From Anaerolineales bacterium (GTDB lineage: Bacteria; Chloroflexota; Anaerolineae; Anaerolineales; DRMV01), in assembly GCA_027053355.1 (NCBI GenBank), contig JALUDX010000137.1, forward strand, positions 1 through 33,883: 33,883 bases of DNA, given 5' to 3'. Under the pieces are notes generated by a model. It ran no database searches. It was not told the DNA's origin and saw only the letters and a program-made list of their open reading frames with translations. Made by a program: the position numbers and the translations under genes. Each line of letters begins with the position of its first letter. Position 1 is the stretch's first letter. Below, piece by piece: positions 4,958 through 33,267 of the stretch.

Positions 4958-6139
4958 CTACGCCCACGTGCGGGTGTCGTGGATGGGCTTGGCGTCGGCG
5001 GGCAGGTCGGCCACCCGACGCACTTGCAGGCGGAATTTGAGCGCGTCGCGGGCCGCCGCGGCCAGGCGTTCTTCCAGGTCGGCGGGCGCATCGGGGGCGA
5101 CGACTTCCAGGGTGAGGTAGTCTTTGTGGGCTGTGCGGGTGATCACGGCCTGCCAGCGCGCCACTTCGGGGAAGCGTGCCATCAAGTCGCGCAGTTGCCG
5201 GGGGTGCAGGAACATGCCGCGCACTTTGACGGCATCGCCGACGCGCCCTAACCAGCCCACCAGCCGCGGGCTGGGCCGCCCGCACGGGCAGGGGGCGGTG
5301 TTCAGCGCGGAGAGGTCGCCGGTGCCGAAGCGCACTAAGGCGTATTCCTCGTGCAGCACGGTGACGACCACTTCGCCCACTTCGCCGGGCGGCACGGGTT
5401 GGCCGCTGTTGAGGTCGCAGATCTGCACGATGACGTCGTCGGGGATGTGCCAGCCGTCTTCGGCCTCGCATTCGTAGCCTAAATTGCCGCACTCCGCGGT
5501 GCCGTAGCCCTGGCGCACGGTGGCGACGCCGCGGCTCTGCAGTTCCGCGCGCAGCGAAGGCGGCAGCGGCTCCGCGGTGACGAAGGCTTTTTCTACCTTC
5601 AGCGGCAGGCCGAGTTGGTCGGCTTTGTCTAACAGGGCTTTGAGGTAAGAGGGCAAGCCCACGTAGCCGTTGACGCCCAGGGCGTGCATGGCGCGTACTT
5701 GCTGTTCCTGGTTGCCCACGCCGCCGGGCAACACGGTGCAGCCCACCGCGCGCAGCCCTTCTTCGAACATCGCCCCCGCGGGGGTGAGATGATAGCCAAA
5801 GGCGTTGAGCACCACGTCGCCCGCGCGGAAGCCCGCGGCTTCCAGCGCCGAAGCCCAACGCCAATAGTCGGCGCGGTCGGCTTCGGGTTCGTAAATCGGG
5901 CCTGGGGATTGAAACACCCGTTTCAGCGCGCCAATGTCCACCGCCAGCAGGCCGCCGAAGGGCGGTTCTTGCGCCTGCAGGTCGAGCAGGTCGTCCTTGC
6001 GCAGCACTGGGAGGCGGCTGAGATCCGCTTCCGAGCGGATGTCGGCAGGGGAGAGCCCCGCGTCTTTCAGCCGGCGGGCAAAGGCCGGTGCGTGGGCGGC
6101 AAGATGGGCAATGAGGTCAGGGAGAGTCATCAGGGGCAT
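4958..6139 (-). CDS. PaaK-like (phenylacetate-CoA ligase family) acyl-CoA ligase
   Basis: 393 aa, of the AMP-forming adenylate-forming superfamily and closest in layout to phenylacetate-CoA ligase, though about 30-40 residues shorter at the N-terminus than typical PaaK. Visible signatures are the helix HAPAFARRLKDAGL, the YGTAECGNLGYEC adenine-binding motif, the RFGTGDLS motif, a CPCGR segment, and the C-terminal VRGMFLHPRQL hinge seen in PaaK. It converts a carboxylate, ATP and CoA to acyl-CoA, AMP and PPi in the cytoplasm. It is the last gene of the leftward liv cluster, 41 nt after livF, so it probably activates an acid brought in by the transporter. Whether that acid is aromatic or branched-chain cannot be told. 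Confidence 0.8.
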   Translation of the reverse strand: MPLMTLPDLIAHLAAHAPAFARRLKDAGLSPADIRSEADLSRLPVLRKDDLLDLQAQEPPFGGLLAVDIGALKRVFQSPGPIYEPEADRADYWRWASALEAAGFRAGDVVLNAFGYHLTPAGAMFEEGLRAVGCTVLPGGVGNQEQQVRAMHALGVNGYVGLPSYLKALLDKADQLGLPLKVEKAFVTAEPLPPSLRAELQSRGVATVRQGYGTAECGNLGYECEAEDGWHIPDDVIVQICDLNSGQPVPPGEVGEVVVTVLHEEYALVRFGTGDLSALNTAPCPCGRPSPRLVGWLGRVGDAVKVRGMFLHPRQLRDLMARFPEVARWQAVITRTAHKDYLTLEVVAPDAPADLEERLAAAARDALKFRLQVRRVADLPADAKPIHDTRTWA

Positions 6140-6180
6140 TCTCGCGAGGTTATGGGTGGGTAGCGGGTAGCAGTTGGCGG

Positions 6181-6972
<792 letters not shown>

Positions 6973-7019
6973 GGCATCCTCGCGGGGTAAGCGGGGGAGG
7001 GCGGTTCAGGGTGGGCAAA

Positions 7020-7052
7020 GTGGCGAGGGGAAGGAGGGCTTCCCCTCGCCAC
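7020..7052 (-). promoter_or_regulatory. Intra-operon stem-loop between livK and livF
   Basis: A perfect 14-bp stem (GTGGCGAGGGGAAG and its complement) with a 5-nt loop begins 13 nt after the livK stop. No T-run follows on the minus strand, so it is not a standard terminator. Such hairpins after a binding-protein gene commonly protect its mRNA or reduce downstream expression. Confidence 0.6.
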
Positions 7053-7065
7053 GAAAGGGTGTGGA

Positions 7066-8262
7066 TTACGGCGCGGAGATGTAGTCCGTGACCCGCGTCC
7101 ACTTGCCGTCCTTGACCTGGTAAATCCGCAGGGCGGTGTTGCCCCGGTGGCTTTGGGCGGTGAAGGTGATCGGCGCGGTCACGCCGCCGGTGTCGAAGTT
7201 TTTGATGGTTTCCAGCGCGGCTTTGATGGATTCGCCGGTCACATCACCTTTGGCCGCTGCGCGTTTGATGCCCTCGGCCATCACGGCCATGGTCCACCAG
7301 CCTTGCACGTAGTGCACGCCCTTGGCGTCCAGGCTGGAGCCGTGGTCTTTCAGCCATTTGGCGGGTGCGTCGTGGCCGGGCACCGGGTCGGTGGGCGGAG
7401 TGAAGGGGATGGTGCCGTACACGCCGTTGGCCGCGTCACCGGCCAGTTTGAGGAAGATTTCATCCGCGCACCAGTTCATGTTGATGAACTTGATCTTGCC
7501 CAATAGCCCCTGGCTTTTGGCGTCTTTGATGAGCACCGCGGCGGGGCTGGATACGGTGTGCACGATGACGTAGTTGGCGCCGAATTGCTGAATCTGCGCC
7601 AGTTCGGCCACGTAGTCGGTCGCGCCTTTGGGCATGGCGATGTGCATGAAGCCCACGCCGTGCGCGTCGGCAAAGGCCTTGGCATCGGCCACCGGCGATT
7701 CGCCGAAGGGGCTGTCGTGATGGATGAGCGCCACTTTCGGCGCGCCATCGTGACCGGAGGCTTTCCAGTCTTGAATGGCCCACTGGATGGCGATGATCGC
7801 CTGGTCGGAGTAGGTCACGCCGATGAGGAAGTTGTACGGCGCTTTGCTGATGTCTTTGACCAGATTGGCGGAATAGGACGCCGACATGTAGGGGATTTTG
7901 TCAGAAGCAATCTTAGAGCGTAGGGCTTCGGTATCGCCCGTGCCCCAACCCATGAAGGCCACTACGCCGTCGTTGACATACTGAGAGTAAAGTTGCTCGG
8001 CCTGGTCGACTTTGTAGGCGTAGTCTGCCCATTCCAAGTCGATCTGGCGACCGTTGATGCCACCGTTGGCGTTCAGCCAGGCCACGTAGTCGCGCACACC
8101 TTCGCTGTACGGCGTACCGACGTCGGAGGTCGGGCCGCTGAGGTCGAACAGACCGCCTACCTTGATGGGGCCCGCCGAGGCGCTTTTGCCTCCGCCGCCG
8201 CAAGCGGTCAGGGCGACGGCCGCCAGCGCAATGACGGCGATTACGAAGAACCATTTACGCAT
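7066..8262 (-). CDS. livK: Liv-type substrate-binding lipoprotein
   Basis: 398 aa, type I periplasmic-binding fold of the branched-chain amino-acid/amide family. The signal peptide ends in the lipobox LTAC with Cys21 followed by GGGG; the mature start IKVGGLFDLSGPTSDVGTPYSEGV is typical. AGGAGG lies 6 nt before the ATG at 8262. It should sit on the outer face of the membrane and deliver ligand to LivH-LivM. Two acyl-CoA ligases share this cluster; such mixed clusters often carry binding proteins for aromatic or short-chain acids, so the LivK name describes the family and not a proven amino-acid ligand. Confidence 0.9.
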   Translation of the reverse strand: MRKWFFVIAVIALAAVALTACGGGGKSASAGPIKVGGLFDLSGPTSDVGTPYSEGVRDYVAWLNANGGINGRQIDLEWADYAYKVDQAEQLYSQYVNDGVVAFMGWGTGDTEALRSKIASDKIPYMSASYSANLVKDISKAPYNFLIGVTYSDQAIIAIQWAIQDWKASGHDGAPKVALIHHDSPFGESPVADAKAFADAHGVGFMHIAMPKGATDYVAELAQIQQFGANYVIVHTVSSPAAVLIKDAKSQGLLGKIKFINMNWCADEIFLKLAGDAANGVYGTIPFTPPTDPVPGHDAPAKWLKDHGSSLDAKGVHYVQGWWTMAVMAEGIKRAAAKGDVTGESIKAALETIKNFDTGGVTAPITFTAQSHRGNTALRIYQVKDGKWTRVTDYISAP

Positions 8263-8395
8263 ACTTCACCTCCTGAGTGGGTCGGAAAGGGAAAGAGTGA
8301 AAAAGCAGGGTGATTATTCGGGCAGCAAATCATCCCATAGCACCTCCTCCGCAGCGATAGAACGCCAGCCGGCGGCTGCTGGCACGCGCAGCAGC

Positions 8396-9439
8396 CTAAT
8401 AACTGAAGGGCCACAACCGGAAGTAATCTTTGATGTCTTCCCATAGTTTCTTTAGCCCTTCCGGCTCCAAAATCAGGAACAGGATGATCACCAGGCCGAA
8501 AGTGGCTTCCTGAATGAAAGGCATGATGGCGTTGATAGCCGGGAAGACCTTGCGCAGTGCGCGCCCCATGTTGGTCAAAAACGCTGGTAACAGCGTCATA
8601 AACGAAGCGCCGAAAAGCGAGCCAGAGACTGAGCCCATCCCGCCGATGATGATCATGGCGAGATAGAGCACCGACACATCCAAGGTAAACCGTTCCCAGG
8701 TGACGATGCTGCGGTAATGCGCCAGCAGCGCACCAGAAACGCCTACGAAAAAGGAAGAGATGGCAAAGGCCAGCAGTTTGTAGCGGAACAGATTGACGCC
8801 CATCACTTCTGCAGCGATGTCTTGGTCGCGGATGGCGATGAACGCCCGGCCGTAGTGGGTGCGGAAAAGGTTGAGGGTGACCAGCGCGGTGATGCCTGCC
8901 AATGCCCAGGCCAGCCAGTAAAAGTTGAAATCCGCGTTCAGCCGCAACCCAAAGAGGCGGGGGTCGGGCACCACCAAGGCTTCCACGCCGCCGGTCAGGC
9001 CCTTCCAGTGGGTCACGGTCCAGAGGATGATTTCCTGCGCGGCTAAGGTGGCGATAGCCAGATACAGCCCTTTCAGCCGCAGCGAGGGGATGCCGAAAAT
9101 CGCCCCTACCACCGCGGTCACCAGGCTGGCGATGATGATGGAAAGCCACCACGGCATACCCAGGCGCACGGTCAGCAGCCCGGCCGTGTACGCGCCAACG
9201 GCCATGAACCCGCCTTGCCCCAGGCTGATTTGCCCGGTGTAGCCGGTGAGGATGTTCAGCCCAATCGCGCCAATGGTAGCAATGGCGATTTGGTTGGCCA
9301 ACGTTAGGGTGTACTTGTTGGCAAAGAAGGGGAACACCAGGATGAACAGGATGAACAGCGCAATGCGGATTTTCTGCGCGGGCGTGCGCCGCAGCGCCAT
9401 ATCCGATTCATACGAGGTATGAAAAACACCAGAAACCAT
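8396..9439 (-). CDS. livM: Liv-type ABC transporter permease LivM
   Basis: 347 aa with about eight to ten membrane segments and the LivM hallmark LNILTGYTGQISLGQGGFMAVGAYTAG. The cytoplasmic coupling region carries GRAFIAIRDQDIAAEVMGVN. A GAGGAG sequence lies upstream of the ATG at 9439 with a rather long gap, so the start is moderately certain. The 36-nt spacing from livH and 133-nt gap to livK fit one transcript. It forms the channel with LivH. Confidence 0.92.
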   Translation of the reverse strand: MVSGVFHTSYESDMALRRTPAQKIRIALFILFILVFPFFANKYTLTLANQIAIATIGAIGLNILTGYTGQISLGQGGFMAVGAYTAGLLTVRLGMPWWLSIIIASLVTAVVGAIFGIPSLRLKGLYLAIATLAAQEIILWTVTHWKGLTGGVEALVVPDPRLFGLRLNADFNFYWLAWALAGITALVTLNLFRTHYGRAFIAIRDQDIAAEVMGVNLFRYKLLAFAISSFFVGVSGALLAHYRSIVTWERFTLDVSVLYLAMIIIGGMGSVSGSLFGASFMTLLPAFLTNMGRALRKVFPAINAIMPFIQEATFGLVIILFLILEPEGLKKLWEDIKDYFRLWPFSY

Positions 9440-9475
9440 AACGGCTTACTCCTCTGCTGGGGAACGACTCGCAGG

Positions 9476-10348
9476 TTACACGCGCTCGATGATTTCCTGC
9501 CCAAAGAGGCCGTAAGGCCGCACCATCAGGATGAGAATGAGCACGATGAAGGAAATCACCTGATTGAGCCCCATGCCGATGTAGCCGCCGACATAGGCTT
9601 CTAACAGGCCGATGATCACTCCGCCCACAATGGCGCCGGGGATGGAATCCAGCCCGCCCAAGATCACCACTGGGAACACCCGCAGCCCAAAACCGGCCAG
9701 TTCTGGCCCCACACCCACGATGTTGGCTACCAGCGCGCCGCCGATAGCCGCTGTCATGGCGGCAATCGACCAGGCCCAGGCGAAGATGCGCTTCACGCTG
9801 ATGCCCATGCTCATCGCGGCTTGTTGGTCGTCGGCCACAGCCCGCATGGCAATGCCTTCTTTGGAACGGGTGAAAAAGAGGTTGAAGAGGAAGAGCATTC
9901 CCCCGGCGATGGCGATCGCCCACAGCCGGTCGGCGCCCACTGTTGCCCCCAGCACATGCACCGGCTTGCTGGGGATGAAAGCCGGGAAGGCGCGCGGTTG
10001 GTTCCCCCAGATGGTGCTCACAATCGCCCGCAGCAGGCTGCTCAGGCCGATGGTCGCCATGATCACCGAGATGATCGGCTCGCCGATGAGGGGGCGCAGC
10101 ACCAGCCGTTCTACCGCCACGCCGATGCCCACCGCTACCAGCAGCGTCAACACCAGGCCGATCGTCCACGGGAGCGAAAACTGCACCAGCATGGAAAACA
10201 TCACATACGCGCCGATGAGCAGAAATTCGCCCTGGGCGAAGTTGATGACGTCGCTGGATTTGTAGATGAGCACGAAGCCCAACGCGGCTAAGGCCAGGAT
10301 CGCGCCGTTGGTCAGGCCGGTGAGGGTGAGTTGGATGAACAAATCCAT
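9476..10348 (-). CDS. livH: Liv-type ABC transporter permease LivH
   Basis: 290 aa and highly hydrophobic. It opens with the usual LivH N-terminus (LTLTGLTNGAILALAALGFVLIYKSSDVINFAQGEF) and carries the coupling-helix region GIAMRAVADDQQAAMSMGI. Length is normal for LivH. A GAGAGG sequence precedes the ATG at 10348. It lies 35 nt after the FadD-like ligase gene and forms the membrane pore with LivM. Confidence 0.93.
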   Translation of the reverse strand: MDLFIQLTLTGLTNGAILALAALGFVLIYKSSDVINFAQGEFLLIGAYVMFSMLVQFSLPWTIGLVLTLLVAVGIGVAVERLVLRPLIGEPIISVIMATIGLSSLLRAIVSTIWGNQPRAFPAFIPSKPVHVLGATVGADRLWAIAIAGGMLFLFNLFFTRSKEGIAMRAVADDQQAAMSMGISVKRIFAWAWSIAAMTAAIGGALVANIVGVGPELAGFGLRVFPVVILGGLDSIPGAIVGGVIIGLLEAYVGGYIGMGLNQVISFIVLILILMVRPYGLFGQEIIERV

Positions 10349-10383
10349 AATTTGCCTCTCGGTTAGCGGTCAGCAAGGAACGG

Positions 10384-12288
10384 TCAGTCAGAGGTATCCA
10401 AGGTTTCAATCCGCAGGTTGGTGCGGATGGTCGCGGTACGGCCGTCCTGATAGGTGATCGTGGTTTCCACAGGCACGCTTTGGGCGTCGCTATACAATGC
10501 GTCGATGAGGTCATCGTAGCGCTGGGCAATCAGGCGGCGGCGCACCTTGCGGGTGCGGGTGAGTTCCGCGTCGTCGGCGTCCAGTTCCTTGTGCAGCAGC
10601 AAAAAGCGACGGATGCGCGCCGCAGGCGGCAGGTCGGCATTAGCCTCCAGCACATGCGCCTTGACGATTTCGTACACTTCGGGCTTCTGAGCAAGGTCAG
10701 TGTAAGTAGTGTAAGGCACCTGGTGCTTCTCAGCCCATTTGCCCACGTTGGCAAAGTCGATGTTGATGAACGCGGTGACGAAAGGCCAGTCGCCGCCGAA
10801 GACCACGGCCTCCCGAATGTAGGGGCTGAACTTGAGTTTGTTTTCGATGAACTGCGGGCTGAACTTGGTGCCGTCGGCCAAGGTCATCACGTCTTTGGCG
10901 CGGTCGATCACAATCAGGTGGCCGTCTTCGTCCAGATAACCCGCGTCGCCGGAATGCAGCCAGCCTTCCTCGTCGACGGCCTTGGCCGTGGCCTCGGGGT
11001 CGTGGTAGTAGCCCACCATCACCGCGGGGGAGCGCATCAGGATCTCGCCGTTCTCGGCAATCTTGACCTCGGTTTCGGGGATGGGCAGCCCCACGGTCTG
11101 GAACTTGATGTCGCCGTCGCGGTGCACCACCGCGATACCCACGATTTCGGTTTGGCCGTAAATTTGCTTCAGGTTGACGCCCATCGCGTGGAAGAAGCGG
11201 AAAATATCCGGCCCCAGCGCCGCGCCGCCGGTGTATGCCCGCTTCAGCCGCCGCAGGCCAAGTTGGTCTTTGATGTTTTCGAACACCAGCCAATCGGCCA
11301 AAAAATAGAGGATTTTCAGCCCCAACGGGGGCTTTTCTTTGCGGAAGCGGGTTTCCGCCATCCGGTAGCCGATGGGCATGGCCCAGTTGTACATGAAGCG
11401 CTTGAAGCGGGTGGTATCTTCGATTTTGACCTGCACCTGGCTGACCAGGCTTTCCCAGATGCGGGGCGGGCTGAAGACCATCTGCGGGCCGATTTCCCGC
11501 ATGTCGTGCTGCACGGTTTCGGGCGCTTCGGGGAAGTTGACCTTGAAGCCGACGTACAGCCCGCAGGCTAAGGAACTCATCTGCTCGCCGATCCAGGCCA
11601 GAGGCAGGAAGGAGACGAACTCGTCGTCGGGCTCCATGGGGTCAACGGCCATCAGGTTTTTGCCCATGCTGATCAGGTTGCCGTGGGTCAGCATGGCCAG
11701 TTTGGGGCGCGAGGTGGTGCCCGAGGTGGTGGAAAGGATGGCCAGGTCGGAAGCCTTGCCGCGCGCGACGCTCTCTTCGTAAAGGCCAGGGTGTTCCTTT
11801 TCGTATTCCTTGCCCAGGGCTTCCACGTCCAGGAAGTACATCAGGTAGTCTTCGGTGTAATTTCGCAGGCCTTTGGGGTCGTAGTAGATGACCTTGTGCA
11901 CCTGGCCTTCCAGTTGCGGCCAGATTTCAATCAGTTTGTCAACCTGTTCCTGGTCTTCGGCGACTACAAAGGTGGCGTCGGAGCGGCTGACGATGTCGAG
12001 TACCTCTTCGCTGACCGAGTCTTGATAGATGCCCACGGATTTCGCGCCCATGGACTGGGCCGCCAGTTCGGCGAAAAGCCATTCGGGGCGGTTGTCGCCG
12101 ATGATGGCCACGGTATCTTCGGGCTTGAGGCCCAAGGCGTGCAGGCCCAGGGCGAAGGCTTTGACATGCTCGTAATACTGCTTCCAGGTGACCGGCTGCC
12201 AGATGCCGTAGATGCGCTCCCGCAGCGCCACCTTGTCGGGCGTGCGCTCCGCGTGCATGGCGAGGTATTGAGGGAGGGTCTCAGGCAT
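10384..12288 (-). CDS. Long-chain-type (FadD/FACL-like) AMP-forming acyl-CoA ligase
   Basis: 634 aa from the ATG at 12288, which has AGGAGG 5 nt upstream; an in-frame ATG 17 codons earlier lies inside livG and is not needed. The P-loop ILSTTSGTTSRPK, the GQTE motif, GWLHSGDAGYLDEDGHL, DRAKDVM and the C-terminal catalytic-Lys region RTRKVRR are all present, as in FACL-type ligases. It makes acyl-CoA from a carboxylate, ATP and CoA. The start overlaps the livG stop by 8 nt, which suggests translational coupling. Insertion between livG and livH is a recurring arrangement in anaerobes and points to transport-linked activation, though chain length and substrate are not readable. Confidence 0.87.
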   Translation of the reverse strand: MPETLPQYLAMHAERTPDKVALRERIYGIWQPVTWKQYYEHVKAFALGLHALGLKPEDTVAIIGDNRPEWLFAELAAQSMGAKSVGIYQDSVSEEVLDIVSRSDATFVVAEDQEQVDKLIEIWPQLEGQVHKVIYYDPKGLRNYTEDYLMYFLDVEALGKEYEKEHPGLYEESVARGKASDLAILSTTSGTTSRPKLAMLTHGNLISMGKNLMAVDPMEPDDEFVSFLPLAWIGEQMSSLACGLYVGFKVNFPEAPETVQHDMREIGPQMVFSPPRIWESLVSQVQVKIEDTTRFKRFMYNWAMPIGYRMAETRFRKEKPPLGLKILYFLADWLVFENIKDQLGLRRLKRAYTGGAALGPDIFRFFHAMGVNLKQIYGQTEIVGIAVVHRDGDIKFQTVGLPIPETEVKIAENGEILMRSPAVMVGYYHDPEATAKAVDEEGWLHSGDAGYLDEDGHLIVIDRAKDVMTLADGTKFSPQFIENKLKFSPYIREAVVFGGDWPFVTAFINIDFANVGKWAEKHQVPYTTYTDLAQKPEVYEIVKAHVLEANADLPPAARIRRFLLLHKELDADDAELTRTRKVRRRLIAQRYDDLIDALYSDAQSVPVETTITYQDGRTATIRTNLRIETLDTSD

Positions 12289-13153
12289 GGCGGCCTCCTG
12301 CTGCGCCTGCGGCAAAGGGGAAGACGGCCTGTTCTTCACCCAGGTAAGCCTGCACCACCAACGGGTTTTTGCGGATTTCGTCGGGGGTGCCTTCGGCGAT
12401 CTTCTGACCGAAGTTGAGCACGGCCACCCGGTCGCTGATGTCCATCACCACGCCCATGTCGTGCTCGATGAGCACGATGGTCACGCCGTGCTCTTCGTTG
12501 ACGTCGAGGATGAAGCGGGCCATGTCTTCCTTTTCTTCGCTGTTCATCCCGGCCATGGGTTCGTCGAGCAGCAAGATGGCGGGCTTCATGGCCAGGGCGC
12601 GCCCCAATTCCACCCGTTTTTGCAGGCCGTAGGCCAAGGTGCCTACCTTTTTATTGCGGATGGATTCGATTTCCAGCAGATCGATGATGTCTTCCACGAA
12701 CTCGCGGAAGGCGATTTGTTCACGCTGCGCTGGCCCCCAGTAAATCATGGCGCTGAGCAGGTTGCTCTTCATGTGCACGTGGCAGCCAGCGAGCAAGTTG
12801 TCGAGCACGGTCATGTGCCGGAAGAGTTCGATGTTTTGGAACGACCGCGCGATGCCCAGCCGGGCGATTTTGTGGGGCTTCATGCCGATTAGTTCATGGG
12901 AGCCTCGGCCGTCGTGGAAGATGATATGCCCACTCTGCGGTTTGTACAGGCCGCTGATGCTGTTGAGCAGGCTGGTTTTGCCTGCGCCGTTGGGCCCGAT
13001 GATGGCGAAAATTTCGCTTTGTTTTACTTCTAAGGTGACGCCGGTGAGGGCGGCGACGCCCCCGAAACTCAAGTGCACGTTTTGCACCTGCAATTGAGTT
13101 TCGCCGGGCTTCAGGCGACTGCTGTTGAGTGGGTGACGGAAACCTCGCAGCAT
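12281..13153 (-). CDS. livG: Branched-chain amino-acid-type ABC transporter ATPase LivG
   Basis: 290 aa from the ATG at 13153, chosen for AGGAG with a 5-nt gap. Walker A GPNGAGKTS, signature region LAYGLQKRVELGRALA, Walker B ILLLDEPMAGMN and H-loop IEHDMGVVM are all in LivG form, with the LivG-specific insert around IARSFQNIELFRHMTV. It energises transport with LivF. It is the first gene after a 440-nt gap holding a likely promoter, and its end overlaps the acyl-CoA ligase start. Confidence 0.92.
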   Translation of the reverse strand: MLRGFRHPLNSSRLKPGETQLQVQNVHLSFGGVAALTGVTLEVKQSEIFAIIGPNGAGKTSLLNSISGLYKPQSGHIIFHDGRGSHELIGMKPHKIARLGIARSFQNIELFRHMTVLDNLLAGCHVHMKSNLLSAMIYWGPAQREQIAFREFVEDIIDLLEIESIRNKKVGTLAYGLQKRVELGRALAMKPAILLLDEPMAGMNSEEKEDMARFILDVNEEHGVTIVLIEHDMGVVMDISDRVAVLNFGQKIAEGTPDEIRKNPLVVQAYLGEEQAVFPFAAGAAGGRHA

Positions 13154-13312: not shown

Positions 13313-13341
13313 AGTATTGCATACTTTAGGCAAAAAGTCAA
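13313..13341 (-). promoter_or_regulatory. Likely promoter for the liv/acyl-CoA-ligase cluster
   Basis: On the minus strand TTGACT (13336-13341) is followed by a 17-bp spacer and AATACT (13313-13318): five of six and four of six matches to sigma-70-type boxes. It would start transcription near 13306, about 150 nt before livG. Confidence 0.5.
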
Positions 13342-13514
13342 CAGGGTTTCGGGCAAACTTGGGCAACTGCTCGCAACGGTTTGGCCTTGGGAAAATAGGC
13401 CACGGCTGAACGCGGATCATTTCGGAGCGCCGCGGATTCGAGAGCGTCGTAGGCGGGATGCCAACCCGCCTGCTACCCACCCCGCCCCGCCCATAGGGGA
13501 GAGGCAACCCGGCA

Positions 13515-13552
13515 ACCAGGTAACCAAGTAACCAAGTAACCAAGTAACCAGT
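13515..13552. repeat. Tandem AAGTAACC octamer array
   Basis: About four consecutive, slightly varied copies of AAGTAACC. A second array lies at about 20167-20228. Both lie shortly after an R1-type copy. Confidence 0.75.
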
Positions 13553-13593: not shown

Positions 13594-14145
13594 TCAATTC
13601 TTCTTCAATTCTTCAATCTGTGCCGCGCCGGCCTCGAGCGCCTGGTAGTTGGCCTCCAGCAAGTGCTGCTTGCGGGCGGGCAGATGCGCTTTGAGTGCGG
13701 CCTTGACCTGCGCCAACGTCAGGCCGTGCCAGCGGGCGAGCAGAGCGCCCAACATCACCATGTTGGCCATGCGGCGGTCGCCCAGGCTTTCGGCCACATG
13801 GTTGGCGCGTAGGCTGAGGGTTTGCACGTCGCTGCGTTGTACCTCGCGCTGCAACAGCGAGGCGTTGGCCACGATCAGCCCGCCTGGTTTCACCTGGGGC
13901 TCGAACCGATCCAACGACGGCGCGTTGAGCGCCATCAGAATTTGCGGGTGGGCCACCAGCGGCGAACCGATCTCTTCGTCGGCGATGATCACGGTGCAAT
14001 TTGCCGTCCCCCCGCGCATCTCGGGGCCATACGAAGGGAACCAAGTCACCTCGTGGCCCGCGTCCATCGCCGCGTAGGCCAAAACTTGCCCGGCAAAAAG
14101 CACACCTTGTCCGCCGAATCCGGCGATCAAAATTTCAGTTTGCAT
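13594..14145 (-). CDS. 2-oxoacid:ferredoxin oxidoreductase gamma subunit (VOR-type)
   Basis: 183 aa from the ATG at 14145, with AGGAGG 5 nt upstream; a GTG one codon earlier is too close to that site. The protein opens with TEILIAGFGGQGVLFAGQVLA, the gamma-subunit signature of pyruvate/ketoisovalerate ferredoxin oxidoreductases, and contains SYGPEMRGGTANCTV, also diagnostic. The gamma subunit packs against alpha and beta in the CoA-dependent 2-oxoacid oxidoreductase complex. It is the fourth gene after the T-box leader, 32 nt after the beta gene. Confidence 0.92.
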   Translation of the reverse strand: MQTEILIAGFGGQGVLFAGQVLAYAAMDAGHEVTWFPSYGPEMRGGTANCTVIIADEEIGSPLVAHPQILMALNAPSLDRFEPQVKPGGLIVANASLLQREVQRSDVQTLSLRANHVAESLGDRRMANMVMLGALLARWHGLTLAQVKAALKAHLPARKQHLLEANYQALEAGAAQIEELKKN

Positions 14146-14177
14146 CACGTCCTCCTAAAACCAACCAGGCAACCGGG

Positions 14178-14972
14178 TCACACCCGCAATTTTTTCAACG
14201 CCGCGTCGACCTTGTAATCGCCTAAGGGGTAAGCGGGCACCATGTGGTCGCGCACCCAGTGCATGGCCTCGATAGGCGACATCCGCCAATTGGTCGGGCA
14301 CGTGGAAAGCAACTCCACCATGGCGAAACCCAAGCCGCGCACCTGGGCTTCGAAAGCCAGGCGGATGGCTTTCTTGGCCTTGCGGATGTTCGCGGGGTCG
14401 TGCATACTGCGGCGCACTGAATAGGCCACGCCGTCCAAAGTAGCCAAAATCTCGGCCATCCGAATGGGGTAGCCCTGGGTGACTACATCGCGGCCTCGGG
14501 GGGAAGAAGTGGTCACCTGCTGCGGCAACGTCGTGGGCGCCATTTGTCCGCCCGTCATGCCATAGATGGCGTTGTTGATGAAAATCACGGTAATGCGTTC
14601 GCCCCGGGCCGCAGCGTGCATGATTTCGGCCATGCCGATGGAGGCCAGGTCACCGTCGCCCTGGTACGTGAAGACCACGCTATCGGGCAAGACGCGCTTG
14701 ATGCCGGTAGCCATGGCTGGCGCGCGGCCGTGTGCGGCCTCCACGCCGTCTAACTCAAAATAATCGTAAGCCAGCACCGCACACCCCACTGGCGCGATGC
14801 CGATCGCGCGCTCGCGTATGCCCATCTCGTCGATCACTTCGGCCACCAGACGGTGGGCGACGCCGTGGGTGCAGCCGGGGCAATAGTGGGTGGCTTTGTC
14901 GGTGAGGGCTTCTGGTTTCTGGTAAACCAGTTTCAATTTTCTGCGGGGCTTTGAGGGCGCAGACACCGTCAT
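14178..14972 (-). CDS. 2-oxoacid:ferredoxin oxidoreductase beta subunit (TPP-binding)
   Basis: 264 aa from the ATG at 14972, preceded by TAGGAGG with a 6-nt gap; a longer in-frame extension upstream would overlap the alpha gene and lacks support. [14 protein letters not shown] supplies the CPGC region that binds the proximal cluster and TPP, and [24 protein letters not shown] with [17 protein letters not shown] is the TPP/Mg motif. It performs the ThDP chemistry on 2-oxoacids with the alpha subunit and passes electrons to ferredoxin. The 10-nt gap to the alpha gene indicates one transcript. Confidence 0.93.
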
Positions 14973-14982
14973 GGGGAACCTC

Positions 14983-16092
14983 CTATGCTTGAGCCATTTG
15001 GGCCAGCCAACGACCCCGCGGGTCGTCGGCGGGGGAAGGGGGAGCAGCCGCCAGAGCCTTGATTTCAGCCAAAACTTCGTCGGGGAAGGGAACCATCCCG
15101 CCCATGCGGCCATAAAAGCGGATGGGCACTTGCCCTTGGGCTGCGGCCTGCACGTCTTCGAGCATTTGACCGCCGTTCATTTCCACCACCAAAAAGGCTT
15201 TGGCCTGGCTGGCCAACTGGCGGATGGCCTGGGTGGGGAAGGGACGCAAACTCACCGGCCGGAACAAGCCCACCCGGATGCCTTCGCTGCGCGCCGCGCG
15301 CACCGCCGAAAGGGCGACGCGTCCCGCGGTGCCGAAGCCGATGACCACATACGCCGCGTCGTCCAGATGGTAGCCGCGATAACGCACCTCATGGGCTTCG
15401 GCTTCCCGCCAGCGGCGCAAAATACGCAGGTTGACCCTTTCCTCGACCTCGGGCTTGAGGTAAAGCGAAGTCAGCCGCCGCGGGGCGCGTCCTTTTGCCC
15501 CACCCACCGCCCATTCAGGCCGCGCGCGTTTGCGCTCCCGCATGGGCGGCAGGGTCACCGGTTCCATCATCTGACCGATGCTCCCGTCCGCGACCACGAA
15601 AACCACAGTGCGGTACTTCTCGGCCAGGTCAAAAGCCTCGCTGATCAGGTCGACCGCTTCCTGCACCGAGGCCGGGGCCAGCACCAAGGGGAAGAAATCG
15701 CCGTGCCCCGCGCCGTGGATCACCTGACGGTAATCGCCTTGGGAGGGCGCGATGTTGCCCAAGCCGGGCCCCCCGCGCATGACGTCCACAATGACCGCGG
15801 GCACCTCGGTGCCGGCGATGTACGAAATGCCCTCGGCCATCAGGCTGATGCCGGGGCCCGAAGTAGAGGTCATCACCCGCGCGCCGGTGCAAGCCGCACC
15901 GTACACCATGTTGATGGCCGCGACCTCGCTTTCGGCCTGCAGAAACGCCCGCCCTTCTTCGGGCATCCGTTTTGACATCCATTCCAGCAGTTCACTTTGC
16001 GGGGTGATGGGGTAGCCGAAATACGCATCCACCCCCGCGCGAATGGCGGCTTCGGCCATGGCAACATTGCCTTTGAGTAGTTCGCGCGTCAT
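14983..16092 (-). CDS. vorB: VOR-type 2-oxoacid:ferredoxin oxidoreductase alpha subunit
   Basis: 369 aa. The N-terminus [36 protein letters not shown] is the form found in 3-methyl-2-oxobutanoate (2-ketoisovalerate) oxidoreductase subunit VorB, rather than pyruvate enzymes. [38 protein letters not shown] follows, and a C-terminal domain ([20 protein letters not shown]) completes the subunit. The complex converts branched-chain 2-oxoacids plus CoA and oxidised ferredoxin to acyl-CoA, CO2 and reduced ferredoxin, a reversible reaction. AGGAGG precedes the ATG at 16092 by about 6 nt. Substrate preference is inferred from family resemblance; 2-oxoglutarate-type relatives share much of this sequence. 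Confidence 0.87.
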
Positions 16093-16107: not shown

Positions 16108-16353
16108 TCAAACCGTGGTCGCATGGCGGCGGGGAATGACTTCCCGATAGACGGTAATCGCGGCTTCCGGGCAGACCACCGCACACACGTTGCACCCCGT
16201 GCAGGCGTCTTCCACCAGCGCAGCCGGATGATAGCCCTGGGGCGTCAGGCGGTTGGTATCCAAGGCGAGCACGCTCACGGGGCAGTAAGCCACGCAAAGT
16301 TCACAACCTTTGCATAAGGCTTCGTCAATTTCGACCCATCCTTTGGCTGGCAT
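16108..16353 (-). CDS. vorC: 2x[4Fe-4S] ferredoxin-like delta subunit of the VOR complex
   Basis: 81 aa from the ATG at 16353, with CGGAGG upstream (gap 5). It has two clusters: CKGCELCVAYCP near residue 14 and CTGCNVCAVVCP near residue 51, the bacterial two-cluster ferredoxin pattern. In VOR/POR complexes the delta subunit relays electrons from beta to free ferredoxin. It is the first gene behind the T-box leader, 15 nt before vorB. Nothing is missing from either motif. Confidence 0.9.
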   Translation of the reverse strand: MPAKGWVEIDEALCKGCELCVAYCPVSVLALDTNRLTPQGYHPAALVEDACTGCNVCAVVCPEAAITVYREVIPRRHATTV

Positions 16354-16507
16354 AAACACCTCCGAAAAATCTTGTAGGGGATGACCGGGCGCTGCGCCCA
16401 GTTTTGGCTTGCGGGGAAGGTGGGCGCCCAGGCAAGCGACGAACTATTTGGCCTTTGATTGCGCATGCCGTCTCACGCCTTGCGCTTCCCGTTCTCAGAT
16501 ATGCATA

Positions 16508-16542
16508 AACAAAAACGCCTTCGTCGTTCAGGGACGAAGGCG
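16508..16542 (-). terminator. Leader terminator of the T-box
   Basis: On the minus strand a 10-bp stem (CGCCTTCGTC pairing with GACGAAGGCG, 16516-16542) is followed by TTTTTGTTT. It lies right after the T-box sequence, as expected for the alternative, terminating structure. Confidence 0.9.
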
Positions 16543-16792
16543 CAACCTCCGCGGTACCACCCGCATTGTCAACCGCCGCGCACCAGAAGGCGCACCTGCC
16601 GGCGCGGCAGCCGACCACTCACGGCGCGCTAACGGGCGCCACGCGCCGTCGATTACAGCCCTCCAGGGGTTCACCGGCGGGGTGCCTCTCGGCACGAGAG
16701 CGCAGGCGAGTTCGGTCTCGAAGCGCTCGGTGGGCGCTGTTGCCGGGCTTACACCCTCCCCGGCTCGCTGGCCGATGACCTACTACTCCTGC
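16508..16792 (-). ncRNA. T-box riboswitch, leucine (CUC) specifier
   Basis: Read on the minus strand, stem I closes with GCAGG (16788-16792) and CCTGC (16702-16706). The specifier loop has AGTAGTA on the 5' side and GAA-CTC-G on the 3' side, bounded by the helix GGTC/GACC. The codon directly after the conserved GAA is CUC (16708-16710), leucine. The apical stem GCCGGG/CCCGGC with GGTGTAAG matches the canonical T-box distal region. The T-box GCGGGTGGTACCGCGG is at 16549-16564; its UGGU bulge would pair with ACCA, consistent with the A73 discriminator of tRNA-Leu. A terminator follows. The element senses uncharged tRNA-Leu and turns on the VOR genes when leucine is short. Confidence 0.93.
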
Positions 16793-16818
16793 TTACACCG
16801 TTTGCTTTTGGATATGGC

Positions 16819-16845
16819 AAACCCGGCGCTCAAGCAGCCGGGTTT
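16819..16845 (-). promoter_or_regulatory. 5' hairpin of the T-box transcript
   Basis: A perfect 9-bp stem (AAACCCGGC/GCCGGGTTT) with a 9-nt loop lies just inside the predicted transcript start and upstream of stem I. It may stabilise the 5' end. No T-run follows in either direction, so it is not a clear terminator. Confidence 0.45.
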
Positions 16846-16857
16846 CAATTGGCGGCG

Positions 16858-16886
16858 ATTGTAACGCGGCCTGCCGTTAGTGTCTA
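16858..16886 (-). promoter_or_regulatory. Promoter of the T-box/VOR operon
   Basis: On the minus strand TAGACA (16881-16886), a 17-bp spacer and TACAAT (16858-16863) give five of six matches to each sigma-70-type box. Transcription would begin near 16851, about 60 nt before the T-box stem I. Confidence 0.75.
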
Positions 16887-27163: not shown

Positions 27164-30100
27164 TTAGCGAATTTTGACCTCCGCGCCCGCGCTGCGCCCC
27201 CGCAGGTCGGGGTAGCGCGCCGCGTAGGCTTCCGCGGGCCGCGCCTGATAGTCGCCGCGCACCGCGGCCCGCACGTAGTAGGTGAGGGTGTACACCCCAG
27301 CGGGCAGGTCGTGGCCTACGAAAACCACTCGTTCGTCGTAATTTTCGCGGTGGTCGAACAGCCACGAGCCCCAGCCGTAGCGGTAGAAATCTCCGAAACG
27401 ATACCCCTCGTCGGCCCGGGGCTGCCAGGCGACGTTTGCGTTGACCACCTCGAAGCCCGCGGGCAGGTAATCGGTGACCACCACATGCCCCATCTGGTGG
27501 TGCAAGGTGACGGTCAGCCGCACCTGCACCAACCCGCCCACGTGGAAGGTCTGCGCGGGGTTGTGCAGGTCTTCGATGGCGTAGTAGGCGCGTTGCACGG
27601 CGATGCCGTCGTCGCGGGCAGGCAGTTGCCCCGCGGGGACGGTGGTTTCCAGGTAGGCGGTGTAGTACAGCGTGCCCGGTCCGGGCAAGTGGCGGATGCG
27701 CAGGGTTTTTTGTTGTCCCGCTGGCAATTGCTCGCCGTTCCAATGCAGGGTGACCGCTTCGGCCATGTGGGCTTTGTCCATGTGGCCGCGCTGGGCCGTG
27801 TCGGCGAAAAGCACTTCGTAATCGAAGTTGGGCGGTTGGGCTTCGTGTGCCTGCGCCCAGTGGGCTAACGCCCGATACACCAGGCCGTCTTGCCAAGAGG
27901 TGGTGTCGGCATGGGCTTTTTGCGCGTCGGCCAGCCAGCGCACCGCCTGGGGCAGCACGGGTGCGTCGGGCTGCAGGGCGAGCAGCGCGTCGACCACCAC
28001 CGCGGTGGTCACCCGCGGCGGCGACCATCCGCGGCCATCCCAGTGCGCGCCGGTAGCCGAGAGGGCGACTCGGTTTTCCAACTGCTGCAAGATGCGCTGT
28101 CGGCTTTGGTCGTCTAAGCGCAGCAGGGCCGCGGTCTGCCCCAGCCAACCCCAGCCTTCGGTGCTCAGGTCTTTCGCGTGGTTGCTCAGCAAATCGAACA
28201 CCACGCCGCTGGCCCGTGCGGGGGCCTTCAGCGCGTCTACGTAAGCAAAGAACGCCCGCTCGTCGGCCGAGTAGCGGCTGTTTTTGCCGTCCCGGGCCAG
28301 CATTTCGCCCAAAGCCCGATAGCCGGCGCGGGGGACGTCGGCATCCACCGCGTAGCCGGCGGCCTGGGCTTCGGTGAGCGCCAAAAGGGTTTGCGCGGTG
28401 GGGGTGGGCTGGCTGTTGAGGCGCTCGGTGTTGCACCACGACCACCCGCCATCGTAGCCCTGCTCGGAGATCAGGGCGCGGATGAGGGTTTCGATGGCCT
28501 GGTCGAGTTGCCCTTGCCATTGGGGCTGCACGCCCACCGTGCGCAGCGCATGGGCTAAGGCCGCGTAGGCCAGCAGCCGGTCGGCTTGGGCGATGGGGCA
28601 CCGCCCGGGGGAAGAAGATGTCTGCTGCCGCAAGGCTGCGGGGATGGCCGTTTGGCCGATTTGGCCCAGCAGCGAAGGCGCGAGGTCGAGGGTCAGGGCG
28701 GTGTTGGCCGTTTCTCCAGGCAGGCGGATGGTCTCGTCCACTTCCGCAGGCCGGGGGAGCACCCCCGACGTGCCCACCACTTCGGTGATGCGGTTTTGAT
28801 ACACGGGCAGGCTGCCTTCAGGCCCTTGGGCGAGCACGGGGCGGGTGGCGTCGCTGTAAGTGCCGCCGCGGGCCTCTACCCGCAGGATCACCCGCTGGGC
28901 CTGCAAGGACGCGCTCGCCCGCCAGGTGACCACGGCCTGCCCCTTGGCCGGTACCGTGGTTTGCTGTTCTACGGGGTCGTGCAGGGTCAGCCCCTCGGTT
29001 TTGCTGAGCCGCGCTTGGGCCTGGATGGGCTGGTCGGTGGTGTTGTGGAGCACGGCCTGGATGAACGCGGTATCGCCGCCGATGAAGAAGGCCGGGGTGT
29101 GCAGTTGGACGAAGAAGGGCTGGCTGACGGTGATTTCCGCGGTGCTTTGGCCTACGCGGGTGTCGGTGGTCACTGCACGGGCGGTCATCACCCACGTGGT
29201 CAGGTTGTCGGGCAGGGTGACGTCGACTTGGGCGCGGCCTTGCGCGTCGGTTTGCACCGCGGCTTGCCAGAAGGCCGTGTCGCGCAGGTTTTCGCGCTGG
29301 GTGATCACGCCCCAGGTATCCGCGCCCTTCCCCCCGCCGCCGCTGCCCATGCCTGGGCCTTCGGGCAACGCCCGTTTGAGCCGGGCGTTGTAGGTTTCCA
29401 GGTCGCCCAGCAGGCCGAGGGCGGTGTAAACCTTCAGGTCCAGGGGGGAGTAGAAGGCGTCCATCAGGTTCAGCGTATCGGGCGCCAGCGCGAAGATGGC
29501 CTTGTCGACCAGGGCCAACGAAACCTCCGCGGGGATGGCCGCGCCGTCTTTGGTGCGGGTTTCGATGGTGAAATGCGCGGTCTCGCCCGGCGCGTAGCGG
29601 GCTTTGTCGGCCTGGATGCGTACTTCCACCTGCTGCTCGTCCAGGGCCACGTCGAGGGGGGCGATGCCGAAGCGGAAGTCGGCGGGAGGCTGGTTGGATG
29701 CCCCGCGCAGCACCAGCACGCTTACGAACACCCGCGGGGCCATGTCTTTGTTCAACGTGATGGGCACCAGGTTGTTGGGCTGTTCCAGGCGCACCACATG
29801 GGTTTCGTAAATGCGCTCGTTGGCCAAGGTGACCAGCGCGTAAGCCGGGGCGGCGTAGGGGTTGGGTACCAACACGTGCGCCACGTCGTTGGGGCGGTAG
29901 TTGCGGTGGTCGGGGATGAGCGGCAGGGCGTGCGCGTCGTTTTGTGCCCAGAGCAGGGCTTCGGGGCCGCTGACCCACCAGGTCAGCGACGCGGTGCGCG
30001 TGTGCCCTTGCGCGTCGTCGGCTTGGGCCACGAAGCGGTAGGTGCCCGCGTGCTCGGGGGTGAAGGGCACCGCGGCTTTGCCTTGGGCGTCGGTTTGGAC

Positions 30101-33100
30101 GTGCTCGAAGGTGGTGATGGGGATGGTCTCTTCCTGCGTTTCCCAGCGGAGCACACCATCCGCGCCGCGCACTTCGGCGCTGTGCCAGCGGACTTCTTCC
30201 ACTTTCACCTGCACTGGGTGGTCGGGCAGGGGGTTGCCCTGGGGATCCACGACCACCACCTGCACGGTGGTCGCTTCGCCGGCGATGCCCAGCCAGGTTG
30301 GGGCGCGCAGGCCGACGTACACCTCGCTTTGCCGGGCGACGATGGTGGTGTGGCCGTCCGCGCTGTTGCCCCCCGCGTCGGTGACGGTGGCCCACACGGT
30401 GTAAGCCCGGTCGCCCTGGTTTTTGTCGGCCTGGGTTTTCAGGGGGATGAGGAACCGCCCCTGCGCGTCGGTGGTGCCTTCGATGGCCTGGGGTTCGCTT
30501 TGGCGGGTGGGGGTTTCGTTGGCCGGGCCGAACCACCAATAGCCTTGCTCGCCCCGGCTGTCGGTGAAGGTGTAGTCGCTCAGCGTGTCGGGCGGCGTGA
30601 AGGTCGAAGGCTGCTCTTCGATGGTGGCCCGCACTTGGGCGTTGGCCACCGCGTCGCCGGCGTAGTACGTGGCTTCCAGGCGGACGGTCGCCTCTTCCCC
30701 CGTGAGCAGGTGGGGCTTGTCGGGAGTGAGGCGCACTTCGAACACCGGCTTGTGATACATGGCGACCCGCACCGCGCCCTGGGGCAAAATGTCTTCTTTT
30801 TTGGCCGGGGTGACGAGTTGGGCGTTCCAGAAGTAGGTGCCCACTTCGGCCTCTGCGGGCAGGTCGACTTTTCCGGCAAAGGTGCCCAGGGGCGAAAGGG
30901 GCAAGGTTTGCTGGAAGATGGCTTTACCGCCTTCGGCTTGCAGGGTGAGGGCGATTTGCCCCGCGGGGATGGCGTAGTGGCTACCCTCTTTTTGCCGCAG
31001 AATGCCTTTGAAGAAGACCGTTTGCCCCGGTCGGTAGAGGGTGCGGTCGGTGTAGATGACCAGGGTGTAGGCCGGGGGCGAGGTGAGGGTTTGGTTGTAG
31101 TAGCCGGGCGAGAAGGGGTTGTCGTCCAGCCCCCAGCGGAGGGAGGTGACCGCGAAATGCTCCCCTGTGCTCACCACCGCGTAATTGGCGCCTTGGGGGA
31201 CGCTGGCCAACCCCTGGGCGTCGGTGTTGCCTTGGGTGGCCGTGGTGATTTGCTTCTCGCGGTAGTCCACGGTGAGGAAGTGGACCGGCAGGTTGGCGAC
31301 GGGTGCGCCGGTATCCCAGTCGGTAACCCAGGCCACGCTGTGCGCGGCGTCGGTTTCTAAGGTGATGTTGTCGGTGACCAGGTAGAGCAGGTTGTCGTCG
31401 TAGCCTTTGCCGTATTCGGGGGTGGGCTGCTGGCTGAAGCGCAGGCAATACGCGCCGGGCGGGAGGTCGTGGCCGTGGTTGAATTCCCGCAGGGCGATGG
31501 TGCGGCGGATTTCTTTGTCACGCGGGTCGTCGGCTACGGGCAGGTTCACCACGCCCACGGGTTTACCCGTTCCGCATTCCACATCGTAGGGGTGTCGGAT
31601 GGCCCCGAGAAAGGCTTTGGCGTCGAGGGCGTAGAGGGTGAGGGTGGCCTGGGTCAGGTTGGCGGTGTGCACGGTGATTTGCTGCGGGCCGTGGATGCGG
31701 ATTTGGGCGGGCCGGCTGGTGGGCAGGTACACGCCGCCGGAAGGCTCCAGGTGGGCGGTGGTGATTTGCACGCTGAGGGGCTGGGTGGTTTCGTGGCCGT
31801 AGATGTCGCGAATGCCGGGCAACAAGGTGATGGTGTAAGTGGTGCCCGCTTCCAGCACCCCGATGTTGAGATAGCGGTCGAAAGCCTGCCAGGTGAGGTT
31901 GGGCACTGCAGGGGAGATCACGATGTGCCCTTGCAGGCTGTCGGGGTCCAGGTAGGTGTTGAAATCCAGACCGGCCCAGGGGGTGAAGAATTGCTGGTAG
32001 AGGTGGGGGTCGTTGATCAGCCGCGGCAGGCCGACGGTGTGGAATTGGGCGACGACGGGCTGGGCCAACGTGCCGCCGTCTTGGGCGCGCGCCTGGGTAG
32101 AGAGGATGATGGTGTAGGTGGTGTCTAACGCGTAGCGCGATTGGGGTATCAGGGTGAGTTTGGTGGCGTCTGCGTTCCAGCGGCTGGTAAATGCGGGGAT
32201 GGCAGCCCGGTCGGGGGCGTTGCTGCTGATGCCCAGGGCTTGCAGGGTGCTGGTCTGCTCCATGGGCTGGGCAAAGCGGATTTCGATGGCCGCGTCCAGG
32301 CGGACGTATTTGGGGGTGTTGTCCAACGCGTTGAAGTTGTCCACTTTGATCGCGTCGACTGCGGGGGCGCGGACGTGGAAACGCCACTGCAAGGGTTGGC
32401 GCAGGCTTTCGCCTTGGGGGGTGGTGAAGTTTTGGGGCAGGGTGACGGTGTAGGTGGTGTTGCTGGCCAGGGGTTCCTCGGGGTGGAAGAGGAGGATGGA
32501 GGTGCTGACCCAGCGGGCGGTGCCTTTGACCGCGGGGGAAATTTGCAACGGCACGGCCGCGGCCGGGTCTTCGCGGGTGGTGAGGGGCGCGGCGGGTTTG
32601 TTGAACACAATGGTGATGTCGGCGTCGGGCGCGACGTCGTCACCCGTGGGGTAGGTGCGCAACACTGAGAACGCGTCTTCGGTGGTGTAGGTGAGGGTGA
32701 CGGCTGCGGGGAGGGCCTGGCCGTCGGCGGTGGTCAGCGCGGTGCTAAAGGCGGCGGTGTACGTGTTGTTGGGTTGCAGCGGTTGCTGGGGTGTGAAGCG
32801 TACCGTGCGTTCGTCGGCCAACGTCAGTTCCCCCGGCAAGGGCTGGTTGGGGGCTTGGGCTGAGGTAAAGGCAAAGGCTTTGCGCAGGCTGGCGGGCTGC
32901 AGGGGACGGTTGAACTTGAAGGTGAGGGTGGGGCGCAGGGTGAGCAGGCCGTGGTTGGCCGGCGTGGCGGTGACCAGCGTGAGGGGGAACGGCGTCGCGG
33001 TCGGCAGCGGGATGAGGGTGGGGATGGCCGCGGCCGTAGGCTGAGCGGTAGCGATTGCCGTGGGGAACGACGACGGGGCGGTGGGCGTGGCGGCTTTGGG

Positions 33101-33178
33101 TTGGCACGCGGTGAAGAAGAGGGCAATGCTCAGGAGCGATAGAAAAGTCGGCAGGGTGAAACGGCGCATGGTTTTCAT
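27164..33178 (-). CDS. Bacterial alpha-2-macroglobulin-like lipoprotein, thioester motif degenerate
   Basis: 2004 aa from the ATG at 33178 (GGAGG 5 nt upstream). The signal peptide ends in FFTAC, a lipobox. In order: bacterial Ig-like repeats (about 55-480), MG-type domains, a glycine-rich bait-region-like stretch (GPGMGSGGGGKGADTWG, about 1330), an A2M domain with FFVQLHTPAFFIGGD, the thioester-type helical domain (about 1500-1780), and a C-terminal MG10 domain (YLPAGFEVVNANVAW ... DERVVFVGHDLPAGVYTLTYYVRAAVRGDY). Bacterial A2M proteins trap proteases in the cell envelope. The usual CxEQ thioester reads CPIAQ at Cys1527, lacking the Glu and with Gln one residue too far. The E. coli partner gene pbpC is not beside it. 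Confidence 0.92.
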   Translation of the reverse strand: MKTMRRFTLPTFLSLLSIALFFTACQPKAATPTAPSSFPTAIATAQPTAAAIPTLIPLPTATPFPLTLVTATPANHGLLTLRPTLTFKFNRPLQPASLRKAFAFTSAQAPNQPLPGELTLADERTVRFTPQQPLQPNNTYTAAFSTALTTADGQALPAAVTLTYTTEDAFSVLRTYPTGDDVAPDADITIVFNKPAAPLTTREDPAAAVPLQISPAVKGTARWVSTSILLFHPEEPLASNTTYTVTLPQNFTTPQGESLRQPLQWRFHVRAPAVDAIKVDNFNALDNTPKYVRLDAAIEIRFAQPMEQTSTLQALGISSNAPDRAAIPAFTSRWNADATKLTLIPQSRYALDTTYTIILSTQARAQDGGTLAQPVVAQFHTVGLPRLINDPHLYQQFFTPWAGLDFNTYLDPDSLQGHIVISPAVPNLTWQAFDRYLNIGVLEAGTTYTITLLPGIRDIYGHETTQPLSVQITTAHLEPSGGVYLPTSRPAQIRIHGPQQITVHTANLTQATLTLYALDAKAFLGAIRHPYDVECGTGKPVGVVNLPVADDPRDKEIRRTIALREFNHGHDLPPGAYCLRFSQQPTPEYGKGYDDNLLYLVTDNITLETDAAHSVAWVTDWDTGAPVANLPVHFLTVDYREKQITTATQGNTDAQGLASVPQGANYAVVSTGEHFAVTSLRWGLDDNPFSPGYYNQTLTSPPAYTLVIYTDRTLYRPGQTVFFKGILRQKEGSHYAIPAGQIALTLQAEGGKAIFQQTLPLSPLGTFAGKVDLPAEAEVGTYFWNAQLVTPAKKEDILPQGAVRVAMYHKPVFEVRLTPDKPHLLTGEEATVRLEATYYAGDAVANAQVRATIEEQPSTFTPPDTLSDYTFTDSRGEQGYWWFGPANETPTRQSEPQAIEGTTDAQGRFLIPLKTQADKNQGDRAYTVWATVTDAGGNSADGHTTIVARQSEVYVGLRAPTWLGIAGEATTVQVVVVDPQGNPLPDHPVQVKVEEVRWHSAEVRGADGVLRWETQEETIPITTFEHVQTDAQGKAAVPFTPEHAGTYRFVAQADDAQGHTRTASLTWWVSGPEALLWAQNDAHALPLIPDHRNYRPNDVAHVLVPNPYAAPAYALVTLANERIYETHVVRLEQPNNLVPITLNKDMAPRVFVSVLVLRGASNQPPADFRFGIAPLDVALDEQQVEVRIQADKARYAPGETAHFTIETRTKDGAAIPAEVSLALVDKAIFALAPDTLNLMDAFYSPLDLKVYTALGLLGDLETYNARLKRALPEGPGMGSGGGGKGADTWGVITQRENLRDTAFWQAAVQTDAQGRAQVDVTLPDNLTTWVMTARAVTTDTRVGQSTAEITVSQPFFVQLHTPAFFIGGDTAFIQAVLHNTTDQPIQAQARLSKTEGLTLHDPVEQQTTVPAKGQAVVTWRASASLQAQRVILRVEARGGTYSDATRPVLAQGPEGSLPVYQNRITEVVGTSGVLPRPAEVDETIRLPGETANTALTLDLAPSLLGQIGQTAIPAALRQQTSSSPGRCPIAQADRLLAYAALAHALRTVGVQPQWQGQLDQAIETLIRALISEQGYDGGWSWCNTERLNSQPTPTAQTLLALTEAQAAGYAVDADVPRAGYRALGEMLARDGKNSRYSADERAFFAYVDALKAPARASGVVFDLLSNHAKDLSTEGWGWLGQTAALLRLDDQSRQRILQQLENRVALSATGAHWDGRGWSPPRVTTAVVVDALLALQPDAPVLPQAVRWLADAQKAHADTTSWQDGLVYRALAHWAQAHEAQPPNFDYEVLFADTAQRGHMDKAHMAEAVTLHWNGEQLPAGQQKTLRIRHLPGPGTLYYTAYLETTVPAGQLPARDDGIAVQRAYYAIEDLHNPAQTFHVGGLVQVRLTVTLHHQMGHVVVTDYLPAGFEVVNANVAWQPRADEGYRFGDFYRYGWGSWLFDHRENYDERVVFVGHDLPAGVYTLTYYVRAAVRGDYQARPAEAYAARYPDLRGRSAGAEVKIR

Positions 33179-33267
33179 CATACCCTCCATCGGGTGGGTG
33201 CCAAGGGAATATGCCCCTCCGCGGGTTGGCTGTTCTTGGCTGTTTGTGGTGAATCGGGGGCCTTTTC

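Follow-up and report, generated by a model that had tools for sequence, protein, structure and literature searches.

T-boxes switch genes on when the matching tRNA is uncharged, and their targets are usually aminoacyl-tRNA synthetases, biosynthetic genes, or transporters. VOR, a four-subunit 2-oxoacid oxidoreductase that interconverts branched acyl-CoAs and ketoacids, is reversible. A leucine T-box in front of leuA in Geobacter is associated with a GAG tRNA and is predicted to control leucine supply (PMC2700814). Additionally, the carboxylation of isovalerate on the way to leucine is known from labelling in rumen bacteria, as cited in a later source (PMC7356843, citing Allison 1962, 1966).

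Here, we describe a complete T-box leader of the transcriptional type, together with its promoter, immediately 5' of vorDABC on the minus strand (16507-16886) of the window, i.e. the whole stretch of 33,883 nucleotides analysed from an Anaerolineales bacterium (contig JALUDX010000137.1). Architecture, specifier, and tRNA match support its assignment as a leucine T-box that precedes a VOR-type operon. The best explanation overall, which we consider probable, is that of a leucine T-box attenuator over vorDABC, with VOR being run in the anabolic direction. The features of the locus are listed in Table 1.

Table 1. Features of the vor locus and its T-box leader (window coordinates).
Feature	Positions	Strand	Basis
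livG - acyl-CoA ligase - livH - livM - livK - livF - PaaK-like ligase	4958..13153	(-)	own promoter
livG-cluster promoter TTGACT-17-AATACT, separate	13313..13341	(-)	conserved in G000, G001, G005
VOR gamma subunit	13594..14148	(-)	profile match
VOR beta subunit (TPP)	14178..14972	(-)	profile match; start set by homologue alignment
vorB (alpha), 3-methyl-2-oxobutanoate:ferredoxin oxidoreductase subfamily	14983..16092	(-)	NF005507, 506 bits (cut-off 399)
vorD-like 2x[4Fe-4S] ferredoxin subunit, ATG at 16353 after GGAGGTG	16108..16353	(-)	Fer4 match
Intrinsic terminator, 11 pairs (16542-16516), with U-tract ending at 16507	16507..16542	(-)	-18.7 kcal/mol, z -4.4
T-box/antiterminator, bulge UGGUACC at 16559-16553	16531..16564	(-)	Rfam, alignment, motif count
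Variable helix 5' of the antiterminator	16569..16614	(-)	alignment pairing; helices 8-9 changed on both sides
Stem III with CCGUUA motif	16626..16639	(-)	Rfam match and alignment pairing
Stem IIA/B region, predicted	16642..16684	(-)	position and partial pairing
Stem II hairpin	16686..16700	(-)	sequence; 78% of cells paired
Stem I; AGUA in the specifier loop, AGCGA/GGUG as distal elements	16702..16792	(-)	stem I model, 107.6 bits; pair counts
Specifier codon CUC (Leu), followed by G and the lower helix	16708..16710	(-)	Rfam alignment, orthologues, stem I model
5' hairpin AAACCCGGC...GCCGGGTTT, GC-rich, between predicted transcription start and stem I	16819..16845	(-)	-17.8 kcal/mol, z -3.9
Sigma-70-type promoter TAGACA-17-TACAAT	16858..16886	(-)	1 found, 0.2 expected in shuffles

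The identity of the vor leader as a T-box is near certain. A default Rfam scan of the leader region reported nothing; RF00230, the covariance model with which the sequence-only reading had proposed to check the leader, did recover all T-box blocks in the right order, but at 22.5 bits (E 0.0066), i.e. below the gathering threshold of 93. This low score points to divergence of the lineage rather than to the absence of a T-box, as RF00230 gives no more than 38.9 bits to the leuS T-box in the same genome. A stem I model (R1) built from 13 leuS T-boxes of related genomes of the same order, and from no vor leaders, matched exactly the stem I span given in Table 1 (107.6 bits, E 3e-30), the next match in the window reaching 12.2 bits. 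The T-box sequence GGGUGGUACCGCGG occurs once in the window (0.0017 expected).

When five vor leaders are aligned with six leuS leaders, 94% of cells are paired in the T-box structure (36-49% in slid controls), and 11 pairs have changed on both sides, compared with 6.1 in shuffles. The terminator alternative behaves likewise (12 pairs versus 7.1). Terminator and antiterminator have CCUUCGUCCC in common and are mutually exclusive according to alignment pairing, motif count, and folding. The leader is predicted to be off by default, because the terminator folds alone and the antiterminator stretch, folded alone, yields no antiterminator. The minimum-energy fold of the whole leader differed from the T-box fold and reached a z of only -1.5, a poor result that is to be expected of a long GC-rich riboswitch; it was set aside as evidence.

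Leucine specificity is hardly in doubt. The CUC specifier and the UGGU bulge are invariant in all five orthologous vor leaders, CUC being the specifier of every aligned relative, and the AACUCG loop also occurs in related leuS leaders. The genome encodes tRNA-Leu(GAG), and the gene reads ...CCAGCGC-A after the acceptor stem; this is the A73 to which the sequence-only reading had fitted the bulge, and UGGU would pair with the ACCA end of this tRNA. That reading had also placed the promoter, a stem I with a CTC specifier, the T-box sequence, and the terminator on the minus strand upstream of VOR-type oxidoreductase genes, all of which were recovered here (Table 1). Neither of its sequence-based grounds for refutation applies, since there is a covariance-model match and the specifier of aligned relatives is constant. 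It gave no reason why VOR should respond to leucine starvation, for which comparison of genomes points to an anabolic role. The promoter hexamers and their spacing are recognizable in four of the five orthologous leaders, the -35 element not being visible in G005; the promoter is conserved in G001 and G004 and in part in G002. The 5' hairpin was absent from the earlier description, as was the lack of an obvious GA/K-turn motif in stem I. Its arms are kept in all five vor leaders, its loop is variable, and it could protect the 5' end or have an operator role.

Downstream of the leader, PF01855, PF02775, PF01558, and Fer4 were matched in the four vor genes. G000, G001, and G005 have a liv cluster behind vor; in the assemblies of G002 and G004, livG and vor are on different contigs. 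A single vor-liv-ligase operon was initially assumed and then dropped upon finding the conserved livG promoter. Given this promoter and the separation of vor from livG in two genomes, only vorDABC can be assigned to the T-box; T-box control of the liv/acyl-CoA-ligase cluster is possible by read-through only. A PDB search with LivK did not decide between an amino acid and a carboxylate ligand. G000 alone has short tandem GGTTACTTGG-type repeats (13505-13550, minus strand) in the gap from the VOR gamma gene to livG, and an open reading frame of 2008 amino acids is located at 27164-33190 of the window (minus strand).

Five of the six genomes of the genus have vor, in each case (5/5) with the T-box in front. 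The vor homologues of sister genera are without a T-box, and the stem I model, applied to 50 Chloroflexota vor loci, had no match in the 45 outside the genus, a few of which are cut upstream by contig ends. The association of T-box and vor in Chloroflexota is probably one event, since it is based on one genus; several genomes are incomplete. In a phylogenetic tree, the vor leaders group together weakly (57/84), outside of the leuS leaders of the genus (97/94). The tree lends no support to the idea that the vor leader was recently copied from a leuS leader within the genus. Six other T-boxes in the genome precede a TrpB-like gene, pheST (pheS assigned by its position before pheT), ileS, serS, thrS, and leuS (L099, L107-L111). 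Default annotation would miss most of these because their scores are below the Rfam gathering threshold. Two further candidates were rejected: GGTACCGCG in L059, where there is no stem I, and the T-box of L201 (Izimaplasma), which controls leuS instead of vor.

By analogy with the T-box family, charged tRNA-Leu(GAG) would leave the terminator to form and vorDABC off. Uncharged tRNA-Leu would pair at two points, with CUC in stem I and, through the ACCA end, with UGGU, thereby stabilizing the antiterminator and permitting transcription of vorDABC. If VOR supplies 2-oxoisocaproate, there is a rationale for uncharged tRNA-Leu to induce vor, because leuA, ilvC, and ilvD were undetected and IlvE is present (NF005146 above cut-off). 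Indeed, none of the three genes had a match above cut-off in the six genomes of the genus, including the 100%-complete genome of the window; G001 and G002 have weak leuA-like matches far below cut-off, and several sister genera have these genes. VOR is not the sole answer to loss of the pathway, as G009 is without ilvC, leuA, ilvD, and VOR alike.

Judging from protein families and gene content, it is quite likely that VOR works anabolically, by reductive carboxylation. The enzyme would convert isovaleryl-CoA, CO2, and reduced ferredoxin to 2-oxoisocaproate, which IlvE would transaminate to leucine; VOR would thereby replace the ilv/leu route. These gene contents suggest that VOR run backwards makes leucine from scavenged acids. 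Counting against this reading, VOR is reversible, its substrate does not follow from the NF005507 match, the vor unit of the window has no ilvE, and co-regulation of an acyl-CoA ligase would there depend on read-through.

An independent parallel emerged from VOR loci surveyed in other phyla (clostridial loci L155, L158, L173, L196, and L209-L242). In gut Clostridia, T-boxes (RF00230, 81-104 bits) are found 5' of a gene encoding an HTH-cupin-AMP-ligase fusion (ACS), for which MbcS is the best-matching NCBIfam model, at a score under the cut-off. MbcS of S. aureus activates 2-methylbutyrate and isobutyrate (PMC10026030). The T-box is directly upstream of ACS in 33 of 34 loci, the remaining one being cut by a contig end, and vorB lies within the available stretch in 19 of the 34. 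Stem I pairing identifies the specifier as GUA (Val) or AUC (Ile), and some genomes have two T-box-ligase units in tandem. After the ligase there usually come a P-loop protein and VOR, with ilvE as well in some loci; in L155 and L173, vor and ilvE are the last genes of the operon. Genomes with ACS lack ilvC in 19 of 23 cases, versus 3 of 14 relatives without ACS (Fisher p 0.0004, a value that ignores relatedness and genome completeness and for which the smallest ACS-less genomes were left out beforehand). The clostridial ligase (L173:2674-5001 and homologues) has N-terminal HTH_19 and Cupin_2 domains, as in XRE-cupin regulators, and the fusion may itself bind DNA or sense a ligand.

Three other explanations of the vor leader were weighed. 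The T-box could serve the uptake of branched-chain amino acids, VOR being a passenger in one long leucine-starvation operon together with liv. Transporters are often under T-box control (PMC2494555), and the liv cluster does lie 3' of vor in three genomes, but we consider this unlikely given that livG has its own conserved promoter, that G002 and G004 have T-box and vor without livG on the same contig, and that no T-box was found at livG-type loci in the family. Still less probable is a catabolic VOR that ferments leucine to isovaleryl-CoA, with the T-box as a leftover or as a paradoxical control: VOR together with a LIV transporter resembles established gene sets for amino acid fermentation, but induction of an enzyme by the lack of its own substrate is hard to explain, the T-box structure is conserved across five species, and the clostridial parallels include acyl-CoA ligase and ilvE.

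It is very improbable that the leader is no more than the decayed copy of a T-box that has ceased to regulate. T-boxes usually, though not universally, have a GA/K-turn motif where stem I begins; it is present in the clostridial leaders, and none was seen by eye in the vor and leuS leaders of the present lineage. This, the low Rfam score, and an A1 helix of three pairs in G000 would fit decay; the low score of the leuS T-box in the same genome and a core that is intact, conserved, and marked by compensatory changes argue against it. An attenuator over an anabolic VOR is the reading preferred here. Extending it, we lean towards the view that branched-chain T-boxes independently captured VOR-based routes of reductive carboxylation, with Leu T-boxes in Chloroflexota and Val or Ile T-boxes in Clostridia. 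Anaerobes without ilv/leu genes would then, when starved of these amino acids, produce them on demand from branched acids in their environment.

Through its specificity, a T-box carries a built-in label of what the gene behind it does in the physiology of the cell. In the present case, the label assigns VOR, which is reversible and as a rule annotated as catabolic, to leucine supply. The clostridial parallel offers a candidate gene set and a regulatory signal for the decades-old isovalerate, isobutyrate, and 2-methylbutyrate carboxylation routes of gut anaerobes, rendering the carboxylation route directly testable. Genomes without ilvC or leuA should be called strict auxotrophs only with caution.

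The RNA of the vor leader belongs to a known class, and its target appears to be unreported: no T-box over VOR was found in the literature covered, although a T-box survey may list this target. The vor leader resembles the leuS T-box leaders of the same Chloroflexota order in stem I, CUC, UGGU bulge, and terminator, and shares 72% DNA identity with the leuS leader of its own genome; it differs from them in controlling vorDABC, in its longer variable helix, and in forming its own, weakly supported group. The target of the Geobacter T-box is the canonical leuA, whereas the target here is a ferredoxin-dependent oxidoreductase in genomes without detectable leuA. The isovalerate route of Allison, established by labelling in rumen anaerobes and described in the accessible texts without T-box regulation, has the same proposed order of acid, acyl-CoA, 2-oxoacid, and amino acid (PMC7356843). 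Finally, the clostridial Val/Ile loci are like the vor locus in having a branched-chain T-box over VOR, often in the absence of ilvC, but belong to another phylum, have GUA or AUC as specifier, carry the T-box 5' of the ligase, and include ilvE in some operons.
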